A DNA stretch of 64,000 bases, taken from positions 124,001-188,000 of the forward strand of contig NZ_JASJEX010000003.1 of NCBI RefSeq assembly GCF_030067705.1, read 5' to 3'. The position numbers and the translations under genes were made by a program. The DNA comes from Kribbibacterium absianum. GTDB lineage: Bacteria > Actinomycetota > Coriobacteriia > Coriobacteriales > Atopobiaceae. Below are positions 52,851-58,445 of this stretch, piece by piece (positions within the stretch are counted from its first letter, which is position 1; every line of letters starts with the position of its first letter). The notes beneath the pieces are model-generated. The model was not told the DNA's origin. It made no database searches and saw nothing but the letters and a program-made list of their open reading frames with translations.

Positions 52851-54407
52851 ATGACCGACTATCGACCCTACTGCACGCTCGGCGACGTGGCTGCCGCGCT
52901 CGCGGCCCACGGTGTGCTGGCCGCCGTGGACGGTGACCGCTCGCTCCCGATCCGCGGCGCGGCATGCGACTCGCGCTCCGTGGAGCCGGGCAACCTGTTC
53001 GTGTGCAAGGGCGCGGCGTTCCGGCCCGAGTTCCTCGTCTCCGCGCTTGACACCGGAGCGGTCGCGTATCTCTGCGACGAGGCCCATGCGGCGGAGCTTG
53101 CCGCCGTGGCGCCGGGCGTGCCGCGGCTCGTTGCCCGGGACCTGCGTCCCGCCATGGCGTATGCGTCGGCCGTGGCTTGGGGTCACCCGGACCGGCGCCT
53201 CAGCGTGGTGGGAATCACGGGCACCAAGGGCAAGACGACGGCCACCTATTTGCTGCGCTCCATGATCGACGCGCTCGGCGGTGAGCCCTGTGGCTACATG
53301 GGAACACACGACGTCTTCGACGGCCTCGCCCACACGTCGTCCGTCAACACCACCCCGGAGGCCCCCGACCTCTGGCGCCACCTGGCCAACGCGGTGGAGG
53401 CCGGGCTTCGGTACGTTGTGATGGAGGTGTCGAGCCAGGCCCTCAAGTACGACCGCACGCTCGGGCTACATCTCAGCGTGGGCTGCTTCCTCAATATCGG
53501 CCGCGACCACATCTCGCCGGTGGAGCACCCCACCTTCGAGGATTACCTGGAGAGCAAGCTCAAGCTCTTCTCCCAGAGCGGCGTCTGCGTGGTCAACGCC
53601 GAGACGGACCACCGTGGGCGGGTGCTGGCCGCTGCCGAGCAGAGCGGCTGTCCCGTGGTGACCTATGGTCTCCTGCCGCCGGCGGACGTTTGGGCCTCTG
53701 ACCTGCGGCCCTGCGGGACCTCCATGGAGTTCGTCGCCCACACCCCTGGGTGGTCCGCGCCGCTCGCCATCCCGTTGGCCGGTGCCTACAACGTGAGCAA
53801 CGCGCTGGCGGGCATCGCGTGTCTGCGTGCGCTTGGCGTTCCGAGCGCCAAGGCCGAGGCCGCCTGTGCGGCCGGACTGCCCGCCGCGAAGGTTCCGGGG
53901 CGCATGGAGGTGCACCAGACTGCCGACGGCCTCGTCACCGTTGTGGTGGATTACGCGCACAACGACATGTCGTACCTCGAGTTCTTCTCGGCCGCGGACG
54001 CGGTGTGGCCGAAGGTCCACCGGACGGCCCTGTTCGGTGTCTCCGGCGGCAAGGCGCTCAACCGCTACGTGGAACTGCCGAGCATCGCCTCCCAGCACGC
54101 GGATCTGCTGATTCTGACGTCCGACGACCCGGGTCCCGTGGACCCTGCCGAGCTGGTGCATGAGATCTCGGCCAACGTTGCGCCGGGGGTGCCGTTCGAG
54201 GAGGAGCCGGACCGGGAGAAGGCCGTCGACCGCGCTTTCGCGCTGGCATGCGAGCGCGCGGCCGCCGGCGAGCGCTCGCTCGTGTGTTTGCTCGGCAAGG
54301 GCGCCGAGGACTCGGTCCTGCAAGCTGGCGTCTCCGTGCCCATCGAGCCGGACACGGCCCACGCTGCGCGTTTGGTGCGCGAGTACGACGAGAAGCGCGA
54401 GCACTAA
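52851..54407 (+). CDS. murE: UDP-N-acetylmuramoyl-tripeptide synthetase (MurE), non-DAP type
   Basis: A 518-residue Mur ligase that adds the third peptide residue of peptidoglycan. The ATP loop GTKGKTT lies at about 124-130 and GTHDVFDG and SSVNTTPEAPDL follow; the carbamylated-Lys region is present. The substrate-selecting motif, DNPR in meso-DAP enzymes, reads D425-D-P-G428 (TSDDPGPVDP). This rules against meso-DAP and suggests lysine, ornithine or another diamino acid. The start ATG follows AGGAGAAAGG. Confidence 0.9.
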   Translation: MTDYRPYCTLGDVAAALAAHGVLAAVDGDRSLPIRGAACDSRSVEPGNLFVCKGAAFRPEFLVSALDTGAVAYLCDEAHAAELAAVAPGVPRLVARDLRPAMAYASAVAWGHPDRRLSVVGITGTKGKTTATYLLRSMIDALGGEPCGYMGTHDVFDGLAHTSSVNTTPEAPDLWRHLANAVEAGLRYVVMEVSSQALKYDRTLGLHLSVGCFLNIGRDHISPVEHPTFEDYLESKLKLFSQSGVCVVNAETDHRGRVLAAAEQSGCPVVTYGLLPPADVWASDLRPCGTSMEFVAHTPGWSAPLAIPLAGAYNVSNALAGIACLRALGVPSAKAEAACAAGLPAAKVPGRMEVHQTADGLVTVVVDYAHNDMSYLEFFSAADAVWPKVHRTALFGVSGGKALNRYVELPSIASQHADLLILTSDDPGPVDPAELVHEISANVAPGVPFEEEPDREKAVDRAFALACERAAAGERSLVCLLGKGAEDSVLQAGVSVPIEPDTAHAARLVREYDEKREH

Positions 54408-54468
54408 GCGAGCCAGGCGCCGCGTTTCGGTTTGAACTTGCGCGTTCTTGCATGTTTAGGCGGAATGG

Positions 54469-54512
54469 CGGTGCAGACCCTCTGGCACGCGCCGCCGTTC
54501 GCGGTGAATGTG
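54469..54512. repeat. GGCGGAATGGCGG hairpin unit
   Basis: GGCGGAATGGCGGTGC (54469-54484) faces GCGCCGCCGTTCGC (54499-54512) to form an imperfect hairpin of about 44 bp. An older-looking half-copy (GGCGCCGCGTTTCGG) lies at 54427. Confidence 0.65.
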
Positions 54513-54552
54513 CAAGTGTGCCTAGGACCAATCGTGGCTTCAGGCGGAATGG

Positions 54553-54597
54553 CGGTGCGTGAGAGGTTTCCAGCGCCGCCATTTCGCTTCAAGACGC
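54553..54597. repeat. GGCGGAATGGCGG hairpin unit, second copy
   Basis: GGCGGAATGGCGGTGC (54553-54568) faces GCGCCGCCATTTCGC (54583-54597), a 45-bp unit with better complementarity than the first. Both lie between murE and the Cys-rich membrane protein gene. Confidence 0.7.
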
Positions 54598-54635
54598 AAT
54601 ATCTCGCAGATTCGGCTGGAAGAGCGGCGCGCCCT

Positions 54636-54878
54636 CTAGTGGCAGCACCCTCCGCCCCTGCCGGCGGCCGTGATCTTGGGCTTGCAGCAGCCACGGGCCG
54701 CCCTCTCCACCGAGTCCACCGTCATCGACGCCGCGGGGCACTCCCCGGTCTCGTGACCGGAGCACCCCCTCACGTCGCATCCGGCGCACCCTCCGCCGTT
54801 CCGTTGGCGCCGAACCTGCCGCGCCACCACGGCGATCACGGCCGCGGCCACCAGCAGAACGATAATGAAGTCAATCAT
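54636..54878 (-). CDS. FeoB-associated Cys-rich membrane protein
   Basis: An 80-residue protein: one N-terminal membrane helix (MIDFIIVLLVAAAVIAVVA), a basic stretch, then a cytosolic tail with about nine Cys (CAGCDVRGC, GECP, RGCC, GGCC). This layout matches the FeoB-associated Cys-rich family, usually next to ferrous iron transporters. No feoA/feoB is in the window. The start could also be the ATG at 54905. Confidence 0.7.
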   Translation of the reverse strand: MIDFIIVLLVAAAVIAVVARQVRRQRNGGGCAGCDVRGCSGHETGECPAASMTVDSVERAARGCCKPKITAAGRGGGCCH

Positions 54879-55037
54879 CGAGTCGACCGCCTCTCGCTTG
54901 ACCATCCAGGACTGGTCCGCTCTCTTCTTTCTATGGGAATTCAGACCAGACGCTTACAGTTATACAAGGCAAACTTACCCCGTGACCTAGGATGGTAGCG
55001 CAGGATCTGCCAAACAACACCCGAGGAAGGGATGCAG

Positions 55038-55799: not shown

Positions 55800-56138
55800 T
55801 CATCGCTCACTGGGCGCGGCGGTAGCTGCGCACAGGAGAGCGTTCTCGAGGCCCCCGTGTCGGCAGAGCTGACACGGGGGCCTTTTGTGGACTGCTCCAT
55901 GAGCATCGTGGGGTCCCCGCTGCGGCCGAGGAGCGCGCCAAGCGGCCCGGGGGCGCGATGGCGGCCGTGCCTGTCGCGTCGGGCACGCGAGTGACAACCA
56001 GGCCCTCGGCCAGACGCTGAGGGTGCGGGACGTCCGTGTTCGCCCGCTCGCCGAGGGGGTCACAAGCCCGAAATACCCTTGTGCCAGATTTGGGGGGACT
56101 GGGCCTCAAAACCGTCCAACTCCGAAAGGGGTCGTGTA
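55800..56138. other. Intergenic region between gpmA and the glutamine synthetase homologue
   Basis: No gene is supported. It holds the gpmA terminator and, near 56061-56083, a CACAAG-N11-CTTGTG inverted repeat about 56 bases before the next start codon, which could be an operator. Nothing else is recognised. Confidence 0.5.
55850..55886 (+). terminator. Rho-independent terminator of gpmA
   Basis: GGCCCCCGTGTC (55850-55861) pairs with GACACGGGGGCC (55871-55882), followed by TTTT. Confidence 0.9.
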
Positions 56139-57470
56139 ATGACCAACAGCAGCAAGGACATCGATTACGTACTCCGAACCGTGGAAGAGCGTGACGTCCG
56201 GTTCGTTCGCCTGTGGTTCACCGACGTTCTCGGCAACCTCAAGAGCTTCGCGATCAGCCCGGAGGACCTCGAGGAGGCCTTCGAGGAGGGCATCGGCTTC
56301 GACGGCTCGTCCGTGGACGGCTTCGTTCCCATCGTCGAGAGCGACATGCTCGCCTTCCCCGACGCCTCGACGTTTCAGTTCCTGCCGTGGCGCCCGCAGA
56401 AGAACGCCGTCGCGCGCATCTTCTGTGACATCTGCACACCCAAGCGTCAGCCCTTCGAGGGCGACCCGCGCTCCGTGCTGTTCCGGGTGTTCCGCCAGGC
56501 GCAGGAGAAGGGCTACGTGCCCATCGTCGGCCCAGAGCTCGAGTACTTCTACTTCAAGAACAACTACCGGCCGGAGCCGCTCGATAACGCCGGGTACTTC
56601 GACCTCACGCCGAGCGACGCCTCCCGCGAGCTGCGCCGGGACACGGTCCTCTCGTTGGAGCGCCTCTCCATTCCGGTGGAGTACTCCTACCACGCGATGG
56701 GCCCCTCGCAGCACGGGCTGTCGCTCCGTTACGCCGAGGCCGTCACCGCTGCGGACAACATCATGACCGCGCGCTTCGCCATCAAACAGATCGCCCAGAT
56801 GAACGGCCTCTTCGCGTCCTTCATGCCCAAGCCCCTGCCGGGGAAGCCGGGCAGCGCGATGTTCCTGCAGCAGTCGCTCTTCGACGGGGCGGGCGAGAAC
56901 GTCTTCTGGGGCGACGACCTTTACCACCTGAGCCCGCTCGCGCTCTCCTATGTGGCCGGCCTCATCAAGTACGCGCCCGAGTACATGCTCGTGACCAACC
57001 CGACGGTCAACTCCTACAAGCGCCTGGTGCCCGGCGGCGAGACGCCCACCTTTGGCACGTGGGGGCGCCGCAACCGCAACGCTCTCGTGCGTCTGCCGCT
57101 CCACAAGCCGGGCAAGCACCAGTCCGCGCGGGTCGAGCTGCGCCTGGCGGACCCGGCGGCCAACCCGTACCTGGCCCTCGCCGCCACGATCAGCGCCGGC
57201 CTCAAGGGCATCGAGGACGGCCTCGAGCTGCCGCCCGAGTTCAACTCTGACTTCGCGCCGAGCGAGAGGGAACTCGCCGACGCCGGTTTCGAGCGCCTGC
57301 CGCGCAACCTCGGCGAGGCCATCGATCGGTTCCGCGCGTCCGGGTTGATGCGCGAGGTGCTCGGAGATCACGTGTTCAACTTCCTCGTGGAAGAGAAGAC
57401 CCGTGAATGGGCGTCCTTCAATGCGAGCGTCACCGATTGGGAGCTGGACGCCTACTACGGCGGGTTCTAA
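56139..57470 (+). CDS. Glutamine synthetase type I homologue with altered metal-site motifs
   Basis: A 443-residue protein with the full GS-I fold: FTDVLGNLKSFAI, GIGFDGSSVDGF, GPELEYFYF, NPTVNSYKRLVPG and ARVELRLADPAANPYLALA. The block that usually reads HHEVGPGQHE is here YHAMGPSQHG, so the two metal-binding Glu are Ala186 and Gly193. The usual GMHxH block is SAMFLQQS, with Phe242 and Gln in place of His. It is either a divergent GS that uses other residues or a GS-like ligase or regulatory protein. The start ATG follows GAAAGGGG. No glnR-like or PII gene is adjacent. Confidence 0.85.
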   Translation: MTNSSKDIDYVLRTVEERDVRFVRLWFTDVLGNLKSFAISPEDLEEAFEEGIGFDGSSVDGFVPIVESDMLAFPDASTFQFLPWRPQKNAVARIFCDICTPKRQPFEGDPRSVLFRVFRQAQEKGYVPIVGPELEYFYFKNNYRPEPLDNAGYFDLTPSDASRELRRDTVLSLERLSIPVEYSYHAMGPSQHGLSLRYAEAVTAADNIMTARFAIKQIAQMNGLFASFMPKPLPGKPGSAMFLQQSLFDGAGENVFWGDDLYHLSPLALSYVAGLIKYAPEYMLVTNPTVNSYKRLVPGGETPTFGTWGRRNRNALVRLPLHKPGKHQSARVELRLADPAANPYLALAATISAGLKGIEDGLELPPEFNSDFAPSERELADAGFERLPRNLGEAIDRFRASGLMREVLGDHVFNFLVEEKTREWASFNASVTDWELDAYYGGF

Positions 57471-57524: not shown

Positions 57525-57556
57525 GGCCCCCCTTTCTTTCATCCGGAAGGGGGGCC
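57525..57556 (+). terminator. Terminator-like hairpin after the glutamine synthetase homologue
   Basis: GGCCCCCCTT (57525-57534) pairs with AAGGGGGGCC (57547-57556). A T-run is absent on the plus strand. Confidence 0.55.
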
Positions 57557-57614: not shown

Positions 57615-58445
57615 ATGGGTGATGGCACGCGACAGCGTCGGTGGTGGACCGTGGTCGTACTGGGCTGCCTGACGGTGTGCGCGATCGTCCTGGCCGGTTG
57701 CGCGGCCGCCTCCGATCATGTGCCCGAGGACACCTACGGAACGGTCGAGGCCGGCACGCTGACCGTGGCCAGCGACCTCTCGTCCCCTCCGATGAGCTTC
57801 GTGGACGAGAAGACGGGGGAGTACCGCGGCTTCGAGTACGACGTCGTCTGTGAGGTCGCGAGCCGTCTGGGGCTCAAGGTGAGCTACGCGGAGACGGTGC
57901 CCTTCTCGGAGCTGGAGGTGCAGCTCTCTCAGGGCGACGCCGACCTCGGGGCCTCCTCCTTCACGTCAACGGACGCCGGCGAGTTCAGGAACCTTATCAT
58001 GAGCGATCCCTTCCTGGAGAGCGGCCGGTCCCTCGTGACGCTCAGGAACGCCGAGCGCACCACCGTCGAGGAGCTCAACAACCCGGGCGTGACCGTGGTG
58101 GTGCAGAAGGGCTCGGCGAGCGAAGCTTGGGCGCGCGAGGAGATGCCGAACGCGGCCATCGTGTACGCCGGTGACGCGACGGAGGCGCTTGCCAAGGTGG
58201 CCAACGGCACCTGCACCTGCGCCGTCTGCGACAGCGTGACGGCCAACTACCTGATCAACAACGTGTTCTCCCAGCTCGAGGTGGTCCGGGAGGAGCCCGA
58301 TGCCGGGGGGTTCGTGTTCGTGGCGACCGAGGACCACGAGCCCTTGATCGAGGCCGTGAACTCCGCCCTCAAGGCCATGCGCCAGGACGGCACGATGGCC
58401 TCTCTCCAGGCCAAGTGGTTCGGCAGCACGTCTGCCGTGTGCTGA
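57615..58445 (+). CDS. Amino-acid ABC transporter substrate-binding lipoprotein
   Basis: A 276-residue family 3 solute-binding protein. The signal peptide ends in lipobox LAGC (about residue 29). The binding fold begins GTLTVASDLSSPPMSFVD, then EYRGFEYDVVCEVASRLG, GDADLGASSFTSTDAGEF and VVVQKGSASEAW. No permease or ATPase gene is adjacent, so it must serve a transporter encoded elsewhere. The ATG follows AGGGGAG. Confidence 0.88.
   Translation: MGDGTRQRRWWTVVVLGCLTVCAIVLAGCAAASDHVPEDTYGTVEAGTLTVASDLSSPPMSFVDEKTGEYRGFEYDVVCEVASRLGLKVSYAETVPFSELEVQLSQGDADLGASSFTSTDAGEFRNLIMSDPFLESGRSLVTLRNAERTTVEELNNPGVTVVVQKGSASEAWAREEMPNAAIVYAGDATEALAKVANGTCTCAVCDSVTANYLINNVFSQLEVVREEPDAGGFVFVATEDHEPLIEAVNSALKAMRQDGTMASLQAKWFGSTSAVC

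Follow-up and report, generated by a model that had tools for sequence, protein, structure and literature searches.

A glutamine synthetase homolog without its metal site

We analyzed a 64,000-nucleotide stretch of the Kribbibacterium absianum genome (the window; contig NZ_JASJEX010000003.1, positions 124,001 to 188,000), which contains a gene for a 443-amino-acid protein with the fold of a type I glutamine synthetase (GS-I). The open reading frame runs from an ATG at 56139 to a TAA at 57468-57470 and is coding-like in composition (GC3, 0.92). The Pfam domains PF03951 (Gln-synt_N) and PF00120 (Gln-synt_C) together span the full length of the protein, which misses the NCBIfam GlnA equivalog cutoff (409.7 versus 429.15 bits), although type I glutamate-ammonia ligase is still the nearest model; against the GGputSyn model it reaches 272 bits versus a cutoff of 650. 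The closest solved relative is GlnA1 of Methanosarcina mazei (8s59), an active dodecameric GS with 44 to 47% identity over residues 10 to 440. An AlphaFold2 model of the window protein, built with 46 related sequences, has a mean pLDDT of 85.9 and matches 8s59 with a TM score of 0.93 in Foldseek, and the end-to-end Pfam match and this score agree with a first-pass annotation that had described most of the fold as well preserved.

The gene, which we refer to as pseudo-GS, is set apart from the upstream gpmA by a terminator-like hairpin and is probably monocistronic, since a second hairpin follows its 3' end (Table 1). A scan against Rfam gave a tRNA as the only match in the window and no riboswitch match near pseudo-GS, by which riboswitch control was ruled out, and a promoter/terminator pattern scan was uninformative for this gene. 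Elsewhere in the window, the intergenic region after a Mur ligase gene (54404-54998) carries a repeated GGCGGAATGGCGG-like motif in spurious open reading frames on both strands, which may be a dispersed repeat.

Table 1. Features in and around the pseudo-GS gene (window coordinates; Mm, M. mazei; Bs, Bacillus; ligand numbers follow Salmonella GS)
Feature	Position	Strand	Basis or remark
Terminator-like hairpin after gpmA, setting pseudo-GS apart	55848..55884	+	-36.2 kcal/mol, z -7.0
Candidate GlnR-type box GTCAC-n6-GAAAT, ~65 bp before start codon	56059..56074	+	2 mismatches
Pseudo-GS gene (443 aa; GS-I fold without the catalytic metal site)	56139..57470	+	ORF, Pfam, alignment, model
F22 and R24 (V23 between), Mm F24 and R26, kept	56202..56210	+	2-oxoglutarate site alignment
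S36, Mm S38, kept	56244..56246	+	2-oxoglutarate site alignment
Pro64 codon, replacing Arg of glutamine feedback (Bs R62/Mm R66)	56328..56330	+	Alignment
R85, Mm R87, kept	56391..56393	+	2-oxoglutarate site alignment
R166 and R167, Mm R172 and R173, kept	56634..56639	+	2-oxoglutarate site alignment
S183, Mm S189, kept	56685..56687	+	2-oxoglutarate site alignment
Ala186 codon, replacing metal ligand E212	56694..56696	+	Alignment; lost in 90/90 sequences of the f1+f3 clade
Gly193 codon, replacing metal ligand E220	56715..56717	+	Alignment
Pro237 codon, replacing glutamate-binding N264	56847..56849	+	Pro too in most f2 sequences
Phe242 codon, replacing metal/phosphate ligand H269	56862..56864	+	Alignment
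Hairpin 3' of pseudo-GS	57525..57556	+	-26.4 kcal/mol, z -5.3
Family-3 amino-acid solute-binding protein gene	57615..58445	+	In most Atopobiaceae, part of a glnHPQ-like cassette between GS-I and the GlnR-like gene

GS binds two metals: E131, E212, and E220 (Salmonella numbering) coordinate n1, and E129, H269, and E357 coordinate n2. The window protein has lost three of these six ligands, two Glu and one His, and the motif blocks that read SHHEVAPSQHE and NGSGMHSN in M. mazei GlnA1 have become SYHAMGPSQHG and PGSAMFLQ, in an unambiguous alignment. The first-pass annotation had placed Ala186, Gly193, and Phe242 at metal-ligand positions, and alignment to 8s59 and across 166 proteins bears out both the residues and their numbers. 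Its count of two Glu and one or two His holds for the two Glu and one His; Gln244, its further candidate, lies at position 271, an Asn in M. mazei GS and not one of the metal ligands. Kept in the window protein are E129 (Glu133), E131 (Glu135), E327 (Glu301), E357 (Glu333), and D50, as well as Arg321, Arg339, Arg344, Arg355, and Arg359. Misaligned motif blocks were ruled out as a cause of the losses, as an alignment of 166 distinct proteins places the flanking motifs cleanly, and no active GS with the same substitutions was encountered; a sequencing or assembly error was ruled out by identical losses in 90 distinct sequences. Because two of the three n1 ligands and H269 are gone, the protein very probably cannot make glutamine.

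Distribution and history of the loss

For the distribution, 298 genomes of the class Coriobacteriia were searched, and 166 distinct GS-I proteins entered the alignment. The families are designated here as f1, the Atopobiaceae (including Olsenella, Atopobium, Parafannyhessea, and Olegusella), f2, probably the Eggerthellaceae, and f3, a sister family of f1 that is probably the Coriobacteriaceae/Collinsella. Retention of E212, E220, and H269 is 0% in f1 and f3 (n = 90 distinct sequences), and the orthologous GS-I of the other orders of the class, like the GS of other phyla, is canonical and keeps all three. The GS-I copies follow the family codes in the tree, in which f1 and f3 form one clade (SH-aLRT, 100; 99 for f3 and 88 for f1), and a single loss of the metal site in their common ancestor would account for this most simply. 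The suggestion that Coriobacteriia as a whole use a modified active site is thus not upheld, as no ligand is missing in the other orders, the metal ligands persist in f2, and the genome has an intact second synthetase.

Within the f1+f3 clade the vacated positions are occupied by varying residues: A, S, G, T, or D at 212; G, A, V, C, S, or T at 220; and F, Y, M, L, P, R, or S at 269. Further changes, namely E129 to Lys, Arg, Gly, or Asp in most Atopobiaceae and loss of the E-flap Glu in f3, came after the metal-site loss. Newly fixed residues in the clade are found at only four positions, none of which is a canonical metal or substrate contact.

The f2 proteins keep the metal ligands and mostly show N264 to Pro, S53 to Cys, and Y326 to Gly, with R62 lost, a combination observed at the Eggerthellaceae-like loci L055 to L073; they may represent an intermediate that is perhaps no longer a normal GS either. 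Two other groups of homologs were observed. Genome G290 (family f6; loci L077 and L075) carries a very divergent GS-I homolog (~30 to 36% identity) in which the equivalents of E131, E220, and H269 have been lost independently, and which, judged by these residues, is possibly a second pseudo-GS; the GlnR-like regulator described below is absent from this genome. Most genomes outside Coriobacteriales harbor a second GS-I paralog (L102 to L106 and L109 to L113), usually with N264A and with His at the R26 position of the 2-oxoglutarate site.

The gene is retained under selection in an order with a second synthetase

An open GS-I reading frame was found in 77 of 79 Atopobiaceae genomes and in each of the 54 f3 genomes listed. 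Nei-Gojobori dN/dS values lie mostly between 0.05 and 0.3, with medians of 0.20 in f1, 0.17 in f3, and 0.19 in canonical relatives. Values of 0.06 to 0.14 were obtained for the closest f1 pairs and of 0.15 to 0.28 for the window gene against its nearest relatives. Neither frameshifts nor relaxed dN/dS were seen, and the gene is under purifying selection. The constraint differs along the protein: positions invariant in the class are retained at 0.70 in the f1+f3 clade, compared with 0.28 for catalytic positions (permutation, P = 0.002).

Besides pseudo-GS, the K. absianum genome has a single other GS. This enzyme, a GSIII, is encoded on contig C4, and both its EVAPxQHE and its NGSGKHxN motif are intact. 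PF12437, a domain specific to GSIII, was detected in 213 of 215 Coriobacteriales genomes and in only 2 genomes of other orders. Since it is almost confined to Coriobacteriales, the decay of GS-I occurs in the order that has GSIII, which appears to make the cell's glutamine. G198 and G228 (both f2, g37) are the sole Coriobacteriales genomes with GS-I and the regulator in which GSIII was not detected; they are either incomplete or dependent on GS-I.

The putative 2-oxoglutarate site has outlasted the catalytic residues

In M. mazei GlnA1, 2-oxoglutarate is contacted by F24, R26, S38, R87, R172', R173', and S189' (PMC11957540), and the GS of Methanothermococcus thermolithotrophicus binds it through equivalent residues (PMC10799026). 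All seven contacts are identical in the window protein. Bulkier or acidic residues at the positions of Ala38 and Val91 are said to block 2-oxoglutarate binding (PMC10799026); the window protein has the Ala38 and Val91 that permit it. Across the f1+f3 clade the seven positions are retained at a mean of 0.89, against the 0.28 and 0.70 given above for catalytic and class-invariant positions, and the first six are all kept in 66 of 90 sequences, S183 being mostly Thr in f3. This excess is moderately significant (P = 0.026 versus class-invariant positions that are variable elsewhere; P = 0.07 versus all invariant positions). From these comparisons, residues for sensing 2-oxoglutarate seem to have outlasted those for chemistry, and pseudo-GS probably still binds this metabolite.

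The Arg required for feedback inhibition by glutamine (Bs R62/Mm R66; PMC10799026) is Pro64 in the window protein and is lost in most of the f1+f3 clade, and the E-flap Glu301 is kept in the window protein but lost in f3. The Bacillus-type feedback signature, made up of Arg62 of the D50 loop and the E-flap Glu, is therefore incomplete in the window protein.

A GlnR-like regulator accompanies GS-I

When the neighbors of GS-I were clustered over about 80 loci, one gene recurred directly downstream, whether the GS-I was canonical or dead; it encodes an OmpR-type regulator of 220 to 230 amino acids. The best of its 67 PDB matches are 8hig, 8hih, and 8hml (107, 99, and 90 bits, with the next family at 71), which we take to be actinobacterial GlnR. 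PF21695 (GlnR_1st) gives 22.2 bits against a cutoff of 27 for one class member, and no match was reported for the Atopobiaceae copy. The receivers of the Atopobiaceae regulators, inspected by eye, show neither an acidic pair behind strand 1 nor a Lys at strand 5. An ANTAR regulator was considered as the identity of the downstream gene and ruled out, the protein being OmpR/GlnR-like. In its winged helix, matching DNA box, and candidate GlnR-like pseudoreceiver, the linked regulator resembles actinobacterial GlnR, from which it differs in stopping right after the winged helix. It also adjoins a GS-I gene; the glnR of actinomycetes, by contrast, reportedly has no colocalized sensory gene (PMC10704036).

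In f3, the regulator is the next gene after GS-I on the same strand, 66 to 239 nucleotides away, in 53 of 54 genomes. In 72 of 77 Atopobiaceae genomes it is likewise encoded on the same strand downstream of GS-I, usually behind a glnHPQ-like amino acid transporter cassette, and outside Coriobacteriales the other flank of GS-I is occupied by genes that read as glutamate synthase (GOGAT)-type. K. absianum itself departs from this arrangement by a rearrangement that parted the glnHPQ-glnR-htrA cluster, on contig C5, from GS-I and one solute-binding protein gene, on contig C3; they lie together in relatives. The C5 locus (L228:4608-10791, G000:C5) holds the genes for a solute-binding protein, a permease, an ATPase, the GlnR-like regulator, and an HtrA-like protease together, and the solute-binding protein gene adjoining GS-I in the window (57615-58445) has no permease or ATPase gene beside it. 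Because GS-I has moved away from the cluster, its neighbors in the window (gpmA, the solute-binding protein gene, and a fructose PTS) are uninformative alone. Pseudo-GS has stayed intact between its hairpins after the separation from glnR, which makes operon polarity an unlikely reason for its retention.

The regulator and an orthologous GS-I are both present or both absent in about 295 of 298 genomes, with a Fisher P of about 1e-38 that ignores phylogeny and comes from a hand-entered table in which genomes with only a paralog or a divergent GS-I count as lacking the ortholog. Nine Coriobacteriales genomes have no GS-I ortholog (G098, G250, G132, G258, G259, G265, G269, G272, and G290). In these nine the orthologous regulator was not found either, the best matches being generic OmpR proteins (E = 1e-18 to 1e-21) and G272 giving not even such a match; in the congeners G110 and G286 the regulator ortholog is recovered at E = 1e-111 and 1e-97. 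GSIII, in turn, is retained in all nine, from which we conclude that the conserved pair is GS-I and the regulator and not GS-I and GSIII. G260 is a false exception, as the first half of its regulator was recovered and the gene seems to be truncated close to the end of a contig, and the regulator of G297 is divergent and doubtful. The joint absences are spread over several genera and are to be read with the caveat of incomplete MAGs; as GS-I and the regulator adjoin, a single deletion or one missing MAG contig would remove both. Linkage by itself is no proof of interaction, since it is ancestral, with canonical GS-I adjoining the same regulator.

A shared promoter box provides a further connection. 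A published box for GlnR of Mycolicibacterium smegmatis is t/gTAAC-n6-Gc/aAAC, and other species have variants of it (PMC10704036). Allowing no more than one mismatch, GTAAC-n6-GAAAC occurs upstream of GS-I in 33 of 61 f1, 19 of 28 f3, and 5 of 17 f2 sequences, and in 23 of 24 canonical GS-I genes of the class versus 0 of 18 outside it; shuffled sequences lead us to expect 0.1 to 0.2 per set. Upstream regions of GSIII carry a weaker box (14 of 23 with at most two mismatches versus 2.0 expected), whose spacing from a TAGnnT-like element is constant. The box in the window is weak alone but takes the same position as in relatives, where it is conserved.

Possible functions of pseudo-GS

We consider it somewhat better than even (a probability of roughly 0.55) that pseudo-GS is the catalytically dead, 2-oxoglutarate-binding partner that provides the signal input of the GlnR-like orphan response regulator. 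In this mechanism GSIII would supply the cell's glutamine, while pseudo-GS would still fold, probably oligomerize, and bind 2-oxoglutarate at the allosteric subunit-interface site used by archaeal GS. Nitrogen shortage would raise 2-oxoglutarate and change the conformation or oligomeric state of pseudo-GS, which would then set the activity of the regulator; the residues normally needed for phosphorylation seem to be missing from the receiver of the latter. The regulator would act on promoters of the GTAAC-n6-GAAAC type, including those of pseudo-GS itself, GSIII, and probably glnHPQ. Linkage, co-occurrence, and the boxes point to a pair of pseudo-GS and regulator that would act through direct contact. 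A regulatory role was among the options raised by the first-pass annotation, and it is the one favored by linkage and co-occurrence with the GlnR-like gene, the shared boxes, and the kept 2-oxoglutarate site.

Regulation through a target other than GlnR, such as control of GSIII, interaction with a PII protein, or buffering of glutamine or 2-oxoglutarate, is a less likely reading that we would nonetheless place ahead of the remaining ones. GSIII and PII genes are present in the genome, GSIII has the same promoter box, and GlnK1, a PII protein, regulates the GS of M. mazei (PMC10651883); as a target, however, GSIII sits poorly with the nine genomes that keep it after losing GS-I and the GlnR-like gene, GS-I tracking the regulator instead. 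That the protein is a different ligase or transferase with a remodeled active site, as the first-pass annotation also proposed, we regard as improbable. GS-I relatives with other substrates do exist, among them gamma-glutamylputrescine and glutamate-methylamine ligases, and E129, E131, E327, E357, D50, and the phosphate-binding arginines of the window protein are kept. Against this, three of six metal ligands and the glutamate-binding Asn are gone, the metal-ligand positions vary across the clade and appear relaxed, not newly fixed, with E129 in most Atopobiaceae and the E-flap Glu in f3 lost as well; the four newly fixed positions involve no canonical contact, and no biosynthetic gene recurs beside GS-I at about 80 loci.

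Continued synthesis of glutamine through an altered metal site is very improbable: the fold and several active-site residues would be in keeping with it, but the n1 and H269 losses, the intact GSIII in the same genome, and the retention of all ligands by canonical relatives in the class are not. We give the least credence to a decaying, functionless relic that has yet to be removed. The degenerate catalytic pocket and the redundancy of GS-I catalysis beside GSIII are what such a relic would show, but the open frames in 77 of 79 and 54 of 54 genomes predate the split of the two families, dN/dS is low, the box is retained, and the gene was kept after its translocation in K. absianum.

Comparison with known systems

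The proposed input of pseudo-GS to the GlnR-like regulator is analogous to Bacillus and Listeria, where a feedback-inhibited GS-I informs MerR-type GlnR/TnrA of the nitrogen state. In Bacillus, glutamine-inhibited GS activates a MerR-type GlnR that is unrelated to the OmpR type (PMC9249791). There the GS is active and the C-terminal tail of the MerR-type regulator enters its active site; here the regulator is OmpR-type with no such tail, the feedback Arg is lost, and contact is proposed from genomic association. A Bacillus-type MerR GlnR was also considered as a partner and set aside, as none of the seven MerR-domain genes in the genome lies by GS-I. In M. smegmatis, the essentiality of glnA2 is bypassed by overexpression of glnR and not by glutamine (PMC6142876), which lends independent support to a functional link between a GS homolog and an OmpR-type GlnR.

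Among GS relatives, the 2-oxoglutarate-allosteric GS-I alpha enzymes M. mazei GlnA1 and M. thermolithotrophicus GS share the fold of the window protein end to end. It differs from them in the loss of E212, E220, H269, and N264 and in its predicted inactivity, and its genome differs in having GSIII as well. PuuA, GMAS, and GlnA3-type gamma-glutamylpolyamine/methylamine ligases are likewise members of the GS-I superfamily with other roles; they need the GS metal ligands, which the window protein lacks. Lengsin (2j9i), a vertebrate GS-I pseudoenzyme, is a GS-I descendant thought to have been reused without GS activity, but it is only distantly related to the window protein (phmmer E = 3e-9) and, as a eukaryotic lens protein, has no tie to a transcription regulator. 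Pairs of GS and regulator, GS pseudoenzymes, and 2-oxoglutarate-binding GS are each known, while a dead GS retained with an OmpR-type GlnR would be a new form of such pairs; among open-license papers we found none on pseudo-GS or GlnR in Coriobacteriia.

Implications

The "glutamine synthetase" genes of Olsenella, Atopobium, and their relatives probably make no glutamine, which has to be taken into account when the metabolism of gut and oral bacteria is modeled. More tentatively, and with the odds rather against it, the dead GS may be the 2-oxoglutarate sensor of an OmpR-type GlnR, an enzyme that became a pure receptor after a second synthetase took over catalysis. Such a natural separation of signaling from catalysis would make the input of GlnR testable without disturbing glutamine synthesis and, if true, GS-I would be a candidate for the missing input of GlnR in other Actinomycetota too.
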